A DNA stretch of 64,000 nt. It comes from Hyphomonas sp. (GTDB lineage: Bacteria; Pseudomonadota; Alphaproteobacteria; Caulobacterales; Hyphomonadaceae). Below are positions 50,262 to 57,890 of this stretch, piece by piece; position 1 is the first letter of the stretch, and each line of letters opens with the position of its first letter. The stretch lies in the NCBI GenBank assembly GCA_017792365.1, contig CP051229.1, positions 3,161,725 through 3,225,724 on the forward strand, read 5' to 3'. Under the pieces are notes generated by a model. That model saw only the letters and a program-made list of their open reading frames with translations. It did no database searches and was not told the DNA's origin. Position numbers and translations under genes: made by a program.

Positions 50262-52757
50262 CTATTCTGCGGCGACCGCGGACGGCCCGAGCTCCAGCTC
50301 GCCGCGCTCGGATTTGGGCGTCACGTGTTCGGGCAGGAAGCAGATGACGGACGCGCCGCGTCCGGGCGTCGACTTGATGGCGACCCAGCCGCCGTGCAGC
50401 TCAACGAATGAGCGAACCAGCGCAAGGCCGAGGCCCGCGCCGCGCTTGTCGCTGGAGTTGAACGTGTCGAAGGCGCTGGCCTGACGTTCCGGCGGAATGC
50501 CCTTGCCCGTGTCGGTGACCGCGAGACGAACGACGCCGTCTTCCTTGGACGCTTCGACGATCACCTTGCCGCCCGGCTCAGTGAAGCGCACCGCGTTGCC
50601 GAGCAGGTTGAACAGGACCTGGCGGATGCGGCGGTTGTCGGCGTGAATATCGCCTATGTCCTCGGCGCATTCGACCGTGATCTTGACCTTCGAATTCTCG
50701 GCGGTGGAGACCACGATATCGACGGTTTCCTCGATCGCCTCGCGCAGCGGGAAGGTGTCGAGATCGAGTTCGAGACGTCCGGCTTCGATCATCGCGAGGT
50801 CGAGGATGTTGGCGATGAGCTTGGAGAGCTGGTCGGCGGCTTCCATGATCGAATGGATCTGGCCCTTCTGGCTCTCCGCCAGCGCGCCCATCTTTTCGCT
50901 TTCCAGAAGCTCCGCGTAGCCGACGATCGTCGTGAGCGGAGAGCGCAACTGGTAGGACATGTTGTGGACGAACTCGGTCTTGAGGCGGTCCGCAGCTTCG
51001 AGCGCATCGGCGCGGTCCTTCAGTGCGGCCTCGACCTTGCGGGCAGCCGTGACGTCCATGAAGGCGATTAGGGTTGCGCCATTGGGCAGCGGCTGTGTGA
51101 TCCATGTGAACGTCTGAGACTGGGTCGTGCGCATGACGCCCTGGTCCTGTTGGCGGAATTCCGGCAGCGGATTGGTGACGCGCGTTTTGATCGTGTTCCA
51201 GACATTGCGGTCGGAGAACAGCGGCGCGCAGGCGTCGACGAGCTGGTCGAAATCCGGCTGGTCGTTCAGCTGATCGCCGAGCTGCCAGAGATCGCGAAAC
51301 GCGTCGTTGAAGAGGCGCAGGCGACCGTCGGAGCCGAACACCACGACGGCTTCGCGCAAGTGGTCGAGCGTCGCCTTCTGGACATTGATGAGACTGTTGT
51401 ACTCGGCGCGCAGCGCGAGTTCGTCAGTCATGTCCTTGAAGACGAGGAGAAGTCCGCCGAGCGGGTGGCGCTGGCGGGTGACCTTGATGATCCGTCCGTC
51501 CGGCAGGTTCCAGAGGTCTTCCGCCACTTCGGTCATTTCGGTGCGGTAGTAGGCGAGCTCGGTATCGCGCCAGCTCTGGTAGTTGGTCTGCTGCGGCAGC
51601 TTGCGGCGCTCGCGCAGGCGGTCGAGCAGCGAGCGGTGATCGGGCTTTTCCAGAAGGTAGCCGGGCTGCAGGTCCCAGAGTTCCTGGAAGGCGTGGTTGT
51701 TGAAGATCAGCTTGCGGTCGGGGCCGAAGATGGCGACGCCGTCAGCGACGTTGTTGAGCGTTTCATCGTGGGCGCGCGCGTCTTTGATGAGGCGTTCGCG
51801 GGTGGTTTCCAGTTCGGTGATGTCGAACGCCATGCCGCCGATGCCGCCCGAGACTGGGAACATGTTGACGCTCATCGCCTTGCGCTCGCCATTGATGACG
51901 ATGTGGCGGGTTTCATCGTTGCCGGCGTTTTCCTTCACGGTGCGCGCGGCCTGACTGACGACGTGCTGGTCGAGCATCACCTGGCGATCGACGACCTGGT
52001 CCATGCTGGATGCGCCGACCGCCTCGATGTAGGCGGGGTTGGCCCACTGGATCTTTCCGGCGCCGGACATGCGCCATGCCGGGAAAGGCGCCTTGCCCAG
52101 CATCTCGAGGAAGGCCATCGGATCGCGGGCGACCGCAGCGCGCGCCTCTTCGAGCCGTGCGCGTGCGCCGGATTCCTCAAGGCCCTTGATGGTTGCATCG
52201 GCGACCCACAACACGGCGCGTGCACCGGCGGTGCGCCCGTCAGCCTCGAGGAAGCGGCCCGACGGACCGATGATCGTGAGCGAGAAGGGCGCGCCGTCCT
52301 CGCGGAGCTGGCGCAGGCGTTCGCGCAGGGTGGTGTCCTGGCCGGCGCCATCGCGGGATTCGAGGTCGGCGAGGCCCTCGAGAATGCGTACCGCGGGGTC
52401 TTCGGACGTGCCATCGTCTGTGAAGCGCAAAAGGCCCATGAGGGCGACCGGAGAGCCATAGAGATTTGGCGCGCCCCATTCGGCGTCTGGGGTGTTCATG
52501 ACGATCGGCTCGTCGCCTTCGCCGGTGAGTTCGGGCGGCGCGCCATCTTCCCAGACCAGAACAATGCCGGGGAACGCGCCGAAAATGCTCTCGGCCCGCG
52601 CAAGCTTCTGCTGCATGTCGCGGGCTTCCTGGCGGAACTTGCGGGCCGTGCCGCGTGCGCCGTCGGAGATGCGCAGCGCCCACAACAGGGCGGCGATCCC
52701 GAACGCAGCCGCGCCGGTTACAAGCAACAGAAGAGGCTGAGTCAGGTTCGCGTCCAT
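50262..52757 (-). CDS. divL: DivL-type PAS tyrosine/histidine kinase
   Basis: An 831-residue membrane kinase: one N-terminal helix (8-27), several PAS domains between about 220 and 570, then the kinase core. The phosphoacceptor box reads FVHNMSYQLRSPLTT, with Tyr602 where histidine kinases have His; that substitution defines DivL. The catalytic domain keeps RQVLFNLLGNAVRFTEPGG, DTGKGIPPE and GAGLGLALVRSFVELHGG. In Caulobacter DivL, at the pole, activates CckA and so CtrA, and reads DivK phosphorylation. The adjoining promoter region carries a CtrA box and four GANTC sites. Confidence 0.93.
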   Translation of the reverse strand: MDANLTQPLLLLVTGAAAFGIAALLWALRISDGARGTARKFRQEARDMQQKLARAESIFGAFPGIVLVWEDGAPPELTGEGDEPIVMNTPDAEWGAPNLYGSPVALMGLLRFTDDGTSEDPAVRILEGLADLESRDGAGQDTTLRERLRQLREDGAPFSLTIIGPSGRFLEADGRTAGARAVLWVADATIKGLEESGARARLEEARAAVARDPMAFLEMLGKAPFPAWRMSGAGKIQWANPAYIEAVGASSMDQVVDRQVMLDQHVVSQAARTVKENAGNDETRHIVINGERKAMSVNMFPVSGGIGGMAFDITELETTRERLIKDARAHDETLNNVADGVAIFGPDRKLIFNNHAFQELWDLQPGYLLEKPDHRSLLDRLRERRKLPQQTNYQSWRDTELAYYRTEMTEVAEDLWNLPDGRIIKVTRQRHPLGGLLLVFKDMTDELALRAEYNSLINVQKATLDHLREAVVVFGSDGRLRLFNDAFRDLWQLGDQLNDQPDFDQLVDACAPLFSDRNVWNTIKTRVTNPLPEFRQQDQGVMRTTQSQTFTWITQPLPNGATLIAFMDVTAARKVEAALKDRADALEAADRLKTEFVHNMSYQLRSPLTTIVGYAELLESEKMGALAESQKGQIHSIMEAADQLSKLIANILDLAMIEAGRLELDLDTFPLREAIEETVDIVVSTAENSKVKITVECAEDIGDIHADNRRIRQVLFNLLGNAVRFTEPGGKVIVEASKEDGVVRLAVTDTGKGIPPERQASAFDTFNSSDKRGAGLGLALVRSFVELHGGWVAIKSTPGRGASVICFLPEHVTPKSERGELELGPSAVAAE

Positions 52758-52775
52758 CGTCGCGCTCCGTCCGCC

Positions 52776-52878
52776 GAATCAGGATCAGCCCCCGGTTGTA
52801 CCGCAGGCCAACGGTTAACCAAGTGGAAGGATTTCAGTTAACGTGGGATTAACGGACTCGAGTCCGCGCGGCGGAATC
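52776..52878. promoter_or_regulatory. Cluster of four GANTC (CcrM) sites
   Basis: GAATC at 52776-52780, GACTC at 52855-52859, GAGTC at 52860-52864 and GAATC at 52874-52878, within 149 intergenic bases. The middle two abut, forming GGACTCGAGTCC. CcrM methylates GANTC, and GcrA reads methylated sites in Caulobacterales promoters. Direct observation of the words; regulation is inferred. Confidence 0.55.
52838..52852. promoter_or_regulatory. CtrA-binding box TTAA-N7-TTAA
   Basis: TTAACGTGGGATTAA is a perfect TTAA-N7-TTAA match, followed by C as in the full consensus. It lies 81 bases upstream of the divL start and 55 bases upstream of the divergent gene start. A further TTAAC half-site is at 52815. 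Which gene it controls is open. Confidence 0.65.
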
Positions 52879-52906
52879 GCCCGGCAACACAAGGGAGGAA
52901 ATCGCC

Positions 52907-53938
52907 ATGAACTCAGGCCCCGATCCGGCGATCGCCGCACAGGCGGAGCTGCACCATCAGTACCTTCTGGGACTCGAACTGATGGTCTCGACACGGGAGG
53001 GGCCGGAGGTGGTTGGCGACTGGATGTTCCGGCTGTTCCGGCGGCAGCACGAGGACAAGTTCTTGTCGAGCTTCCGCAAGCTGGGCCTTGAGGGGCAGCC
53101 GCACGCGGTCGCCTGTGCGAAGTATCACGTCCTGTCGAATGGCATGGGCGGTGTGGCCGTCGAGTACATGGAGGAATCCGACAAGAAGGCCTGGGTCCGG
53201 TTCCGCTATCCGCGCTGGATGTATGACGGGGCGGCGATTTGCGGTGTGCCGGTGGAGGCGAGCCGGGGCTTCCTCAAGGGGTGGTACGCGCAGAACGGCG
53301 TGTCGCTGGGCAATCCGCGGCTGGGCTATGTCTGCGTCTCGGAGGACATGACTGGCCAGTTCGGGCTGTGCGGGTACTTCAGGGAGTACGACCACGACCT
53401 GTCGGAGGATGAGCGGCTGGCGTTTGCGCCGGGCGAGCGGCCGCCGCCATTCGATCCGGATGCTCAACCCGCGCCGCCTGACGCCGAGTGGAGCGAGGAG
53501 CGGCTGGCCAAGGCCAACCGCAACTATGCCGTCGAGTATATCCGTAATGGGGTGCGCGAGCTGGCCAACGTGCTCGGCGACGATCGGGCGGTCGAGCTGT
53601 GCAAGCTGGCGGCGCGGCTGACCGGGCTGCAGCACTATCGGCAGATGGCGCAGGACGTAGGGGGCGTCGACGGCGGCCCGAAGGAGGCAGCGAGGTTTCG
53701 CGACGATGATGGCGGGCATGGGCGATGAGGTCAGCCTGTCGGAGGCTGGGGCGGGGAGTGGCGGGTGCGCCAGGAGGGTCTTCGGATTATCCGCGGGCTG
53801 GAGGGTCGCGAGGCGGAGCGGCTGCTCGAATGCTGGATCGAGATCTGGCGCGGCGCGGTGGCGTCGCACCGTGTTTTCATGGATGTGCGGGCCGAACGGC
53901 AGGGGGATGCGCTGAACTGGACGGTTCGTGCGGCCTGA
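52907..53938 (+). CDS. Hypothetical protein (two compensating frame breaks)
   Basis: About 343 residues, cytoplasmic, family not recognised. Notable blocks are MFRLFRRQHEDKFLSSFRKL, VEYMEESDKKAWVRFRYPRW followed by MYDGAAICGVPVE, and YVCVSEDMTGQFGLCGYFRE; several cysteines are spread through the middle. The frame ends at 53728, but adding a shift near 53696 (TTT run) and another near 53754 (GGGG run) extends it with EWRVRQEGLRIIRG to a stop at 53938. AGGGAGGAAATC precedes the ATG. It shares the CtrA/GANTC intergenic region with divL, which suggests a cell-cycle link; that is inference only. Confidence 0.65.
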
Positions 53939-53950
53939 GAGGGCTGTCCG

Positions 53951-55366
53951 CTAAAACTGGAAGTAGACGAACGGCCGGTACCCTGTCGGGGTGAAGGCGA
54001 TGGCGAAGGCTGCGGCGGTTCCGATCGCGAGGGCCAGCGGGACCGGGCGCAGGCTTCGGAACAGGTCTTCCAGCCGATAGCGGTTGGCGAGGTAGTGGAT
54101 GGCGGCAAGGCCGATCATCAGTGGCCAGACGATGCCGGGCAGGGACTGCGTGCCGGCGGACTGGAAGGTCAGGTAGACCTTTGCAATCTGCACCGCTTCC
54201 TCGAGCGTGGCGGCGCGGAAGAAGATCCATGCGAAGTTGACGAAGTAGTACGTAAGCGCGACGCCGAGGATCATGCCGGCGGCGCCCATCTTCGGAAAGC
54301 GCGCGGCGACGCGGTTTTTCCAGATGCGCTCTATGGCGAGGGCGGCGCCGTGGAGGCCGCCCCAGATGACGAAGTTGAAGCTGGCGCCATGCCACAGGCC
54401 GCCGAGCAGCATGGTGGTCATGAGGTTGACGTCCCGCCGCATATTGCCGCGACGGTTTCCGCCGAGCGGAATGTAGAGATAGTCGCGCAGCCAGCTGGAC
54501 AGCGAGATGTGCCAGCACCGCCAGAAATCCTGGATGTTCGGCGCGAGGTAGGGTGAGTTGAAGTTCGGCGGGAACTTGTAGCCGAGCAGACCGGCGGTTG
54601 CGATCGCCATGTCGGAATAGCCGGAGAAGTCGCAGTAGATCTGCACGCCGTAAAGGAGGACGCCGGCGATGATCGACATCGCATTGTAGTCGGCGGGTGA
54701 GGCGAAGATCAGGTCGACATAGGGCGCGACGTTGTCGGAGATGCAGCTCTTCTTGATGAGGCCGATCAGGAACAGCGTGACGCAGAACTTCACGTCGACG
54801 TCGGACCAGCGGCGCAGGGTCTCCATCTGCGGCACGAAGTTCGAGGCGCGAACGATCGGGCCTGCGACGAGCTGCGGGAAGAAGGCGATGTAGAAGGAGA
54901 CGTCGAGCAGAGAGCGGTCCGCCTTGATGTCGCGGCGGTAGACGTCGACCATGTAGGAGATGGCCTGGAAGGTGTAGAAGCTGATCCCGACCGGCAGGAC
55001 GAGGTTCAGCGTGACCTGGCCGGATGGCAGGCCGACGAGGCCGGCAAGATCGGCGAAGCTGTCGGCGAAGAAGTTGAAGTACTTGAACACGCCAAGCACG
55101 GCGAGCGAGACGGCGACGCCCACTCCGATCCAGACCTTCTTTGCTGCGTCGGTCAGCGGAGAGGTCTCGCCCACGCGTAGGCCGACGAGGTAGCAGGTCG
55201 CGGTGACGAACCAGATCAGGGCGAGGAAGCGCCAGTCCCATGCCGCGTAGAACACGTAGGAGGCGGCGGTGAGCATCATCTTGCGCTGCACGTTCTTTGG
55301 CAGCAGCCACGCGAGAGCGAAGACGAGGGCGAAAAAGAAAAAGAACCGCAGCTCAACGAACAGCAT
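53951..55366 (-). CDS. MBOAT-family O-acyltransferase (AlgI/PatA-like)
   Basis: A 471-residue multi-spanning acyltransferase with about 11 helices. The MBOAT hallmarks are VGISFYTFQAISYMVDVYR, FFPQLVAGPI, FSGYSDMAIATAGLLGY, FWRCWHISLSSWLRDYLYIP and the catalytic-type histidine in GGLWHGASFNFVIWG. It moves acyl groups across the inner membrane onto polysaccharide; no separate AlgX/AlgJ-like partner is adjacent. Its start overlaps the deacetylase stop by 14 bases, implying translational coupling and a shared substrate. Confidence 0.93.
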   Translation of the reverse strand: MLFVELRFFFFFALVFALAWLLPKNVQRKMMLTAASYVFYAAWDWRFLALIWFVTATCYLVGLRVGETSPLTDAAKKVWIGVGVAVSLAVLGVFKYFNFFADSFADLAGLVGLPSGQVTLNLVLPVGISFYTFQAISYMVDVYRRDIKADRSLLDVSFYIAFFPQLVAGPIVRASNFVPQMETLRRWSDVDVKFCVTLFLIGLIKKSCISDNVAPYVDLIFASPADYNAMSIIAGVLLYGVQIYCDFSGYSDMAIATAGLLGYKFPPNFNSPYLAPNIQDFWRCWHISLSSWLRDYLYIPLGGNRRGNMRRDVNLMTTMLLGGLWHGASFNFVIWGGLHGAALAIERIWKNRVAARFPKMGAAGMILGVALTYYFVNFAWIFFRAATLEEAVQIAKVYLTFQSAGTQSLPGIVWPLMIGLAAIHYLANRYRLEDLFRSLRPVPLALAIGTAAAFAIAFTPTGYRPFVYFQF

Positions 55367-56159
55367 GGCTGGCCTCCGCCTGCTGCTCTGCGTTGATCGC
55401 CGTGTCGCGCGCCGCGCGGACGGCCACGACGCTGTATCCCTCTGCCTTCAGCCGCTTGATCAACGTGGAGACGGTGCGAGCTGAATTGCGGAACGGATCG
55501 TGGAGGAGGATGACGCCGCGATGATTATTCTGCGCCAGCTTGTCCATGACCGTGGAGACGATCGTTCTGGTGTTGGTTGTATCCCAATCCTCGCTGTCGA
55601 TGTCGGCGGAGACGCTGATCAGTCCGAGGTTTTCGACGAGCGCGTCGAGCTCTGGCGATGAAGCGAGGTAGGTGAAACGGAATAGCGTCGCGCTCTGATC
55701 GCTGATTTCAGGGGAAGCGGCCAGCGCGGCATTGATCGCATCCAGGCTGCGCTGGATGTTGGCGCGCGCTTCGTCCAGCGAGACGTCGGTGAGGCCGACA
55801 TGAGCCCAGCCGTGTGAGCCGACCTCGTGTCCTGACAGGGCGATGGCGCGCGTCAGGTCGGGACGGGCTTCGGCATGCTCGCCCTGGAGGAAGAAGGTTG
55901 CGCGAACGCATTCGGCGGCGAGGGCTTCGAGGACCTTCGGCGTGCGCCGGCGTTCCGGCCCATCATCGAACGTCAGGACGACTTCGCGCTCTCCCAGCTG
56001 ATCTTCCAGGGGCGGGGATGCGGGCGACAACTCGATCACTCGTGAAACGCCGAGCGCGTCTGGTCCGCAGGCATCAATTGGGTATGGCGAAACCGGTTCG
56101 TCAGCGCAGCCGGCGAGGGCGGTTCCCATGAGGATGACGCACGCGAGCTGTCGGCCCAT
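55353..56159 (-). CDS. NodB-type polysaccharide deacetylase lipoprotein
   Basis: A 268-residue protein with signal and lipobox (VILMGTALAGC). NodB domain: motif 1 VVLTFDDGPERR with the catalytic Asp pair, motif 2 GHEVGSHGWAHVGLTDV with the metal histidines, then LFRFTYLASS (arginine motif), DSEDWDTTN, and ILLHDPFRNSA. It removes N-acetyl groups from a cell-surface glycan or peptidoglycan. The ATG at 56159 is chosen since the lipobox follows at the right distance; an upstream start at 56231 is rejected. Coupled to the MBOAT gene. Confidence 0.9.
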   Translation of the reverse strand: MGRQLACVILMGTALAGCADEPVSPYPIDACGPDALGVSRVIELSPASPPLEDQLGEREVVLTFDDGPERRRTPKVLEALAAECVRATFFLQGEHAEARPDLTRAIALSGHEVGSHGWAHVGLTDVSLDEARANIQRSLDAINAALAASPEISDQSATLFRFTYLASSPELDALVENLGLISVSADIDSEDWDTTNTRTIVSTVMDKLAQNNHRGVILLHDPFRNSARTVSTLIKRLKAEGYSVVAVRAARDTAINAEQQAEASHAVR

Positions 56160-56357
56160 CGCAGGAATGGACGGTCGCCTCAATACGGTGCTGCCGGCGG
56201 TTCCGGGCATTGGGCCAGCTCTTTTAACCACTCGCGCGCAGCAAAACCGGAGCGTGACGACGCGACACGCTCGTTATTTTGCAAGAGCCAAGCCACCGGC
56301 GCCCACAAGAGGAGGGCATAGTCGGAACCCGAAGACCCGGCTGAATGAGCGCGTCCG

Positions 56358-57890
56358 TCAGATTTCCTGGTTGTAGGCGCCGACTTCCTTGAAGCCGGCA
56401 AGGCGCGGCTTGATCTCCTCGCGGAAGAGCTTGCGCATGTCGTCGTCGGATTGCATCGACTCCACCACAACCACCAGTTCCGGCTTGTTGGACGAGGCGC
56501 GGACGAGGACCCACGACCCGTCTTCCAGCGTCACGCGGGCGCTGTTGACCGTGTTCACATCCGTGATCTTGCGGCCGAGGATCGAGCCGCCATCCTTGCC
56601 GAGCTGTTCGTAGGCCGCGACGACCTGGTCGACGACGCCATACTTGGTCTCGTCGTCGCAGTGTGCGGCCATGGTCAGCGACGTGTAGGCCGTGCCGAGA
56701 TCGCCCTTGAGGTCCGACATGGAGCGGCCCGGGTTGCGGTCCAGCATCTTGAGCACTTCGGCGGCGGCGACGAGGCCGTCGTCATAGCCATAGCCGAGCG
56801 GCTCGCGGAAGAAGAAGTGGCCCGATTTCTCGAAGCCGGCGAGGGCGCCGAGTTCCGTGGTGCGGCGCTTGATATAGGAGTGGCCGGTCTTGAAATAGTC
56901 GACCGTGGCGCCGTTTTCTTGCAGCACCGGATCGGTCTTGTAGAGGCCGGTGGATTTCACATCGACGACGAATTTGGCGTTCGGGAAATTCTTTGAAAGA
57001 TCGCGTGCGAGCATCAGCCCGATCTTGTCGGCGAAGATTTCCTCGCCGGTGTTGTCGACAACACCGCAGCGGTCGCCGTCGCCGTCGAAGCCGAGGGCGA
57101 CGTCAGCGCCGTGTTCCTTCAGCGCCGCGGCCATCGCATGCAGCATTTCCGCGTCTTCGGGGTTCGCGTTGTAGTTCGGGAAGGTGTAGTCGAGATTGCA
57201 TTCCAGCTCGATCACTTCGACGCCCATCTTGCGCAGCGCGTCTGGCGCAAAGGCGCCGGCCGTACCGTTGCCGCAGGCGGCGATGACTTTCAGCGGGCGT
57301 TCGATCTTCACGCCCTTGCAGACGGCTTCGATGTACTTCTCGCGCATGCCTTCGACGTGGACGATCCTGCCGCCGGGCTGCGGGTTGAACTTGCCGTTGA
57401 GGACGACGTCCTTGAGCTGGCCCATCTCGTCGGGCCCAAAGGTGAGCGGCTTGTTTGCGCCCATCTTCACGCCGGTCCAGCCGTTCTCGTTGTGCGATGC
57501 GGTGACCATGGCGACGCACGGAATGTCGAGGGCGAACTGGGCGTAGTAGGCGACGGGCGACAGGGCGAGGCCGATGTCGTGAACTTCCATGCCGCCTTCG
57601 AGGAGGCCGAGGATCAGGGCCTGCTTGATGGCGATCGAGTAGGACCGGTAATCATGGCCGACGACAATCTTGGGCTCGACGCCCATGTTGCGGATGACGG
57701 TCGCGAGGCCAAGGCCGAGCGCCTGAACGCCCATGTAGTTCAGCTCAGGAGCTTTTGCCGTTTTCGGATCATCCCCCGGCGCGCCAAACCACCAGCGCGC
57801 GTCGTACTCCCGAAACCCGGTCGGCTTCACGAGCGCTGTTGTTTCAAACTCAAGGGTGTTCGCCTGAATGGCTGGCTTGGGCGTCTTCAT
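56358..57890 (-). CDS. Phosphomannomutase / phosphoglucomutase
   Basis: A 510-residue alpha-D-phosphohexomutase, ManB/AlgC type. Four expected motifs are present: phosphoserine loop VTASHNENGWTGVKMG, metal loop LGFDGDGDRCGVVD, sugar-binding FEKSGHFFFREP with GYGYDDGL, and phosphate-binding RASSNKPELVVVVE. It interconverts hexose-6- and hexose-1-phosphates for nucleotide-sugar synthesis. Its placement beside the deacetylase and acyltransferases points to surface-polysaccharide supply. Confidence 0.93.
   Translation of the reverse strand: MKTPKPAIQANTLEFETTALVKPTGFREYDARWWFGAPGDDPKTAKAPELNYMGVQALGLGLATVIRNMGVEPKIVVGHDYRSYSIAIKQALILGLLEGGMEVHDIGLALSPVAYYAQFALDIPCVAMVTASHNENGWTGVKMGANKPLTFGPDEMGQLKDVVLNGKFNPQPGGRIVHVEGMREKYIEAVCKGVKIERPLKVIAACGNGTAGAFAPDALRKMGVEVIELECNLDYTFPNYNANPEDAEMLHAMAAALKEHGADVALGFDGDGDRCGVVDNTGEEIFADKIGLMLARDLSKNFPNAKFVVDVKSTGLYKTDPVLQENGATVDYFKTGHSYIKRRTTELGALAGFEKSGHFFFREPLGYGYDDGLVAAAEVLKMLDRNPGRSMSDLKGDLGTAYTSLTMAAHCDDETKYGVVDQVVAAYEQLGKDGGSILGRKITDVNTVNSARVTLEDGSWVLVRASSNKPELVVVVESMQSDDDMRKLFREEIKPRLAGFKEVGAYNQEI

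Follow-up and report, generated by a model that had tools for sequence, protein, structure and literature searches.

The window analysed here, the whole 64-kb stretch of DNA, carries two divergently oriented genes, divL and an orphan gene, on either side of a 149-base intergenic region (52758-52906) flanked by the divL ATG at 52757 and the orphan ATG at 52907. Within this region lies an exact match to TTAA-N7-TTAA, TTAACGTGGGATTAA at 52838-52852, whose far end lies 95 nt before the start codon of divL. Read on the minus strand (TTAATCCCACGTTAAC), the match presents both TTAA half-sites, the seven-base spacing and the C after the second half-site that characterize a CtrA site. A third TTAA, a GcrA/CcrM-type extended site and a pair of overlapping GANTC sites share the same short region (Table 1).

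Table 1. Genes and sequence elements of the divL intergenic region, in window coordinates.
Feature	Position	Strand	Description
divL	50262..52757	-	831 aa; PAS domains, HisKA with Tyr for His, HATPase_c
GcrA/CcrM-type extended site, TGATTCG	52775..52781	-	YGAKTCG, contains GANTC; points at divL, 17 bases before its ATG
Third TTAA half-site	52815..52818	-	23 bp beyond the box's second TTAA, toward divL
Putative CtrA box, TTAA-N7-TTAA	52838..52852	-	Toward divL TTAATCCCACGTTAA, followed by C
Two overlapping GANTC sites, GACTCGAGTC	52855..52864		Two bases from the box
Divergent orphan gene	52907..53728	+	273 aa

Among solved structures, the best match of the protein encoded on the minus strand is 4q20, annotated as 'Sensor protein DivL' (E value 2e-61; the next best match reaches 8e-35). 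Its phospho-site reads SYQLRSP, with a tyrosine replacing the histidine as is characteristic of the DivL pseudokinase, and this tyrosine is found in nine of ten aligned family members; one DivL, at locus L023 (genome G086), carries an arginine instead (SRQLRAP). The genome also encodes CtrA (an NF045991 equivalog with 409 bits at a cut-off of 350, and ~76% identical to Caulobacter CtrA), GcrA and a DivK ortholog (61%), whose gene precedes one of PleD type with two receivers and a GGDEF domain. No box with seven or eight of the eight letters occurs at the ctrA, divK and gcrA loci of this genome. The ctrA promoter (L296:1463-1502) contains TTAA half-sites and CGATTCG shortly before the ATG, a layout that resembles that of divL without the full box.

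The original prediction had named the gene divL and had claimed a perfect TTAA-N7-TTAA in the 149-base gap, with no second full match in the other intergenic regions that it covered. The name is upheld by the 4q20 match and the tyrosine phospho-site, the letters and coordinates of the box are exact, and a pattern search finds no other exact site in the entire window; a search allowing one mismatch adds none. In dinucleotide shuffles of the window the mean is 0.03 matches, with one match in three of 100 shuffles. Over the whole genome (3,398,407 bases), seven exact TTAA-N7-TTAA sites are present vs 12 of the reversed control AATT-N7-AATT, so the box is not enriched by this control, which is probably an imperfect one because TTAA contains a stop codon and would be rare in coding sequence. 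When the spacing is varied instead (TTAA-N1..20-TTAA, 40 pairs genome-wide), N7 accounts for seven pairs, while the remaining 19 spacings have 1.74 on average (Poisson P ~0.002).

Comparison with relatives was made in a family set of 105 Hyphomonadaceae genomes, in which the window genome is the sole member of its genus; the relatives named through the DivL alignment include Hyphomonas, Henriciella, Hirschia and Ponticaulis. A divL match is present in 103 of the 105, genomes G026 and G032 giving none at the threshold used. The exact box stands upstream of divL, 91-149 nt before the start of the match, in 101 of these 103, and is absent from the two upstream regions L104 and L107. None of the 101 box-bearing promoters has a second box in the same upstream region, and each of 30 family divL loci (4.3-5.5 kb, that of the window included) contains one box, always before divL. 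Base frequencies were taken from 68 non-redundant promoters (<80% identical); the other 33 box-bearing promoters were left out, either for sharing 80% identity or more with a retained promoter or for not filling the 140-nt frame. Among the 68, the TTAA half-sites are 100% invariant at all eight positions, and a C comes directly after the second half-site in 90%. The spacer opens with C in 94%, its six further positions stay at 43-69%, and the columns of the upstream flank reach 28-51%; 41 distinct spacers occur among the 68 promoters. Fixed half-sites around a drifting spacer are what selection on a protein binding site would leave. The box of the window scores 16.95 with the family matrix, near the low end of the range (16.02-28.06), and has T as its first spacer base.

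The remaining elements of the promoter recur as well. Counted from the second TTAA of the box, the third TTAA keeps a phased distance of 22-24 bp in 63 of the 68 promoters (22 bp in 46, 23 bp in eight and 24 bp in nine). The extended GcrA/CcrM motif is described as YGAKTCK (PMC7987155), of which the pattern counted here, YGAKTCG, is a subset. YGAKTCG is found between the box and the start of the divL match in 76 of the 101 box-bearing promoters, as against none of 101 when the same length is taken upstream of the box. On the opposite strand the counts are 3/101 downstream and 2/101 upstream of the box, and the divL coding sequence has four occurrences per 72,000 bases (30 loci). Plain GANTC follows the same division, with 89/101 between the box and the match start vs 20/101 upstream. 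With an extended GANTC motif before divL and GcrA encoded in the genome, the divL promoter has two of the features expected of a GcrA/CcrM-controlled promoter. The divL intergenic region holds four GANTC sites and lies where GANTC clusters most densely in the window; the 10-mer GACTCGAGTC beside the box is particular to the window genome among the 101 box-bearing promoters. A scan of 52700-52960 for sigma-70-type promoters returned none.

We put at roughly 0.83 the probability that the 15-mer is a CtrA binding site in the divL promoter, by which phosphorylated CtrA would alter divL transcription in a loop running through DivL, CckA and ChpT, with the GcrA-type site as a second input and with the orphan gene not the reason for the box. 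Phosphorylated CtrA would bind the box and thereby change the transcription of divL, with activation the likelier effect. DivL would stimulate CckA, and CckA would phosphorylate CtrA via ChpT, which would close a transcriptional loop on the kinase pathway. The GcrA/CcrM-type site near the start codon would couple divL to chromosome replication. The stimulation of CckA by DivL and the phosphorylation of CtrA by CckA through ChpT are established in Caulobacter and have been tested in part in Hyphomonas neptunium (PMC7200025). Several observations count against this reading: the low score of the window's box with the family matrix, the two family genomes and the sampled promoters of two other families of the order that lack the exact box, the larger genome count of the reversed control pattern, the negative sigma-70 scan and the lack of a box at the ctrA locus of the window genome.

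The sign of the proposed regulation may also be the reverse. In this variant CtrA represses divL: the box and the third TTAA would shut off a promoter driven by GcrA, in a negative loop that limits DivL at high levels of phosphorylated CtrA. Repression is conceivable because the third TTAA sits at the distance of a -10 element, ~16-18 nt beyond the -35-like TTAAC, with its phasing kept across the family, and a GcrA-type site follows downstream. The arrangement is also reminiscent of the CtrA half-site at the ctrA promoter P1 of Caulobacter. However, expression of the divL homolog of Dinoroseobacter shibae, which has a CtrA site, is reduced rather than raised in ctrA, cckA and chpT mutants (PMC4046655), and on this account activation is favored. 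Repression is thus the less probable sign of the same reading, and its odds are contained in the 0.83 given above.

The original prediction had offered two readings of the box, a CtrA site acting on divL or one that places the unknown gene at 52.9 kb in the CtrA regulon, and had proposed a comparison of divL promoters in relatives as a check. The conservation of the motif in 101 of 103 genomes supports the first reading in that respect, while the second, in which the box serves the divergent orphan, is unsupported and in our estimate improbable. The box is 54 bases from the orphan ATG, and TTAA-N7-TTAA reads on both strands, but the distribution of the gene speaks against this reading. The orphan protein matches no Pfam or NCBIfam model. 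It is encoded in 28 of the 105 family genomes, its own included, and in the other 27 it lies elsewhere than at divL; no homolog appears at the divL loci of other genomes, for which 0.5 to 2.5 kb upstream were covered, and where orphan and divL fall on one contig in other genomes they are tens of kilobases or more apart. The relatives that keep the box have other genes upstream of divL. In two close relatives with the same box (L216 and L217) a co-directional phosphoglucomutase/phosphomannomutase gene lies directly upstream, ending ~195 bases before divL, and in further box-bearing relatives the neighbors differ again, some of them on the opposite strand (for example L222, L233, L266 and L267, according to open-frame composition). 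With the neighbor varying and the box kept, the orphan is rejected as the reason for the box on position and distribution; judged by these sequence comparisons, the box belongs to divL and not to the divergent gene.

The surroundings of the orphan have their own history. A phosphomannomutase-type homolog is present in the window at 56358-57890, and the segment between it and divL (52907-56231), with the orphan, an MBOAT acyltransferase and a polysaccharide deacetylase, is missing between the corresponding genes in L216 and L217. The segment of 52.9-56.3 kb looks like an insertion or rearrangement, extra in the lineage of the window. Orphan proteins of different genomes share up to 88% identity, where the DivL proteins of these genomes are ~59% identical, and the gene sits at scattered positions; this suggests horizontal spread or unusually strong constraint.

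Could the conserved site be bound by another regulator, with a recognition sequence like TTAA-N7-TTAA, in place of CtrA? The genome is likewise rich in spacing N17 (eight of the 40 TTAA pairs, comparable to N7), and either another factor or a double-turn CtrA arrangement might account for this excess. The company of the box genome-wide points to CtrA instead. Of six further exact boxes outside the window, one (L005) stands before flgI, one (L006) separates the flagellar rod (flgBC) and fliE genes from fliO-fliP, and one (L004) precedes a DUF1217 gene, which we take to be flagella-associated; half of the six thus adjoin flagellar or presumably flagella-associated genes. Moreover, the consensus with its trailing C is the motif TTAA-N7-TTAAC obtained by ChIP-seq for CtrA of H. 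neptunium (PMC7200025). With these two observations we regard a regulator other than CtrA as quite improbable. A chance match without function, to which three of 100 window shuffles would give some room, is rejected on conservation and is practically negligible, since the box is kept in nearly all family genomes with a divL match while its spacer drifts.

Among the other three boxes outside the window, L002 (L305:171-185; G000:C1:1192070-1192084) is ~60 bases before the gene of an 866-aa histidine kinase that is closest to the DivJ and PdhS models, below their cut-offs; by this box CtrA may affect a further kinase related to the pathway. L001 is ~270 bases away from a PCMT gene, on its 5' side, and L003 has no clear assignment.

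Beyond the family the box becomes patchy. A non-random sample of 90 divL promoters was examined for four further families of the order; it consists of 60 higher-scoring matches among those listed and 30 picked ones, from a total of 192 genomes outside the family that had a match. The exact box occurs near divL in 11 of 28 promoters in family f3, 2 of 25 in f4 (a further f4 match, 835 bases from the match start, is left out of this count), 0 of 21 in f2 and 0 of 16 in f5. A matrix scan, with the matrix built from the 68 family sites and a hit defined as one reached by at most one of 100 shuffles, gives 16/28, 4/25, 1/21 and 2/16 in the same order, of which the last two counts are close to chance. 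The strict link between box and divL is therefore one of Hyphomonadaceae and part of f3, and not of the whole order.

Related arrangements have been described or predicted in other Alphaproteobacteria. CtrA sites on cckA and divL were predicted in 'cluster B' Rhodobacterales, which lack DivK (Brilli 2010, PMC2877005). These bacteria and D. shibae share with the present case the CtrA site upstream of divL and the feedback of CtrA on its own phosphorelay; they differ in that DivK, DivJ and PleC are lost and DivL is devoid of a kinase domain, whereas here HisKA and HATPase are kept and a DivK ortholog is present (PMC2877005, PMC4046655). In Rhodobacter sphaeroides, osp is activated by CtrA and inhibits CckA, so that CtrA likewise feeds back on CckA activity by transcription, but through another protein and in bacteria without DivK (PMC9430884). 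As for the second input, divL belongs to the GcrA regulon of C. crescentus and B. subvibrioides and is predicted to do so in most of 23 Caulobacterales species (PMC7987155). The extended GANTC motif before divL is common to those species and to the family studied here; the text of that report, in the part available, mentions no CtrA box at divL, whereas in Hyphomonadaceae the GcrA-type site is paired with the box and the third TTAA.

The closest system is that of H. neptunium, a member of the same family with the same CtrA motif, in which DivL, CckA, ChpT and CtrA are essential and CtrA binds its own promoter and controls sciP; the available text of that study differs from our reading in not naming divL (HNE_0399) as a CtrA target (PMC7200025). 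A literature search, largely of open-access main texts without supplements, returned no statement of a link between CtrA and divL in Hyphomonadaceae, and the accessible parts of PMC4432633 and PMC8959179 hold nothing further on CtrA control of divL. DivK is dispensable in H. neptunium, and unidentified factors were proposed to feed into DivL or CckA (PMC7200025); regulation of divL by CtrA together with GcrA would be a candidate for part of these inputs. We offer as a tentative picture that the Hyphomonadaceae divL promoter is a fixed junction at which CtrA, by the box and its phased half-site, and GcrA/CcrM, by replication-coupled methylation, would meet on the pseudokinase that activates CckA, with a direct positive loop from CtrA through DivL, CckA and ChpT back to CtrA and with DivK retained. 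Speculatively, control of DivL dosage might explain in part why H. neptunium tolerates the loss of DivK yet needs DivL.

Given the earlier predictions of CtrA acting on divL in Rhodobacterales and of GcrA acting on divL in Caulobacterales, the box in Hyphomonadaceae adds a further, solid case to a type of site that is already known, as far as the published texts considered here extend. Its presence before divL throughout nearly the whole family makes a strong prediction for the CtrA wiring of budding and stalked Hyphomonadaceae. The link from CtrA to divL that we consider likely here would exist alongside a full-length DivL and a DivK ortholog, whereas the earlier prediction had tied such a link to lineages without DivK (PMC2877005).
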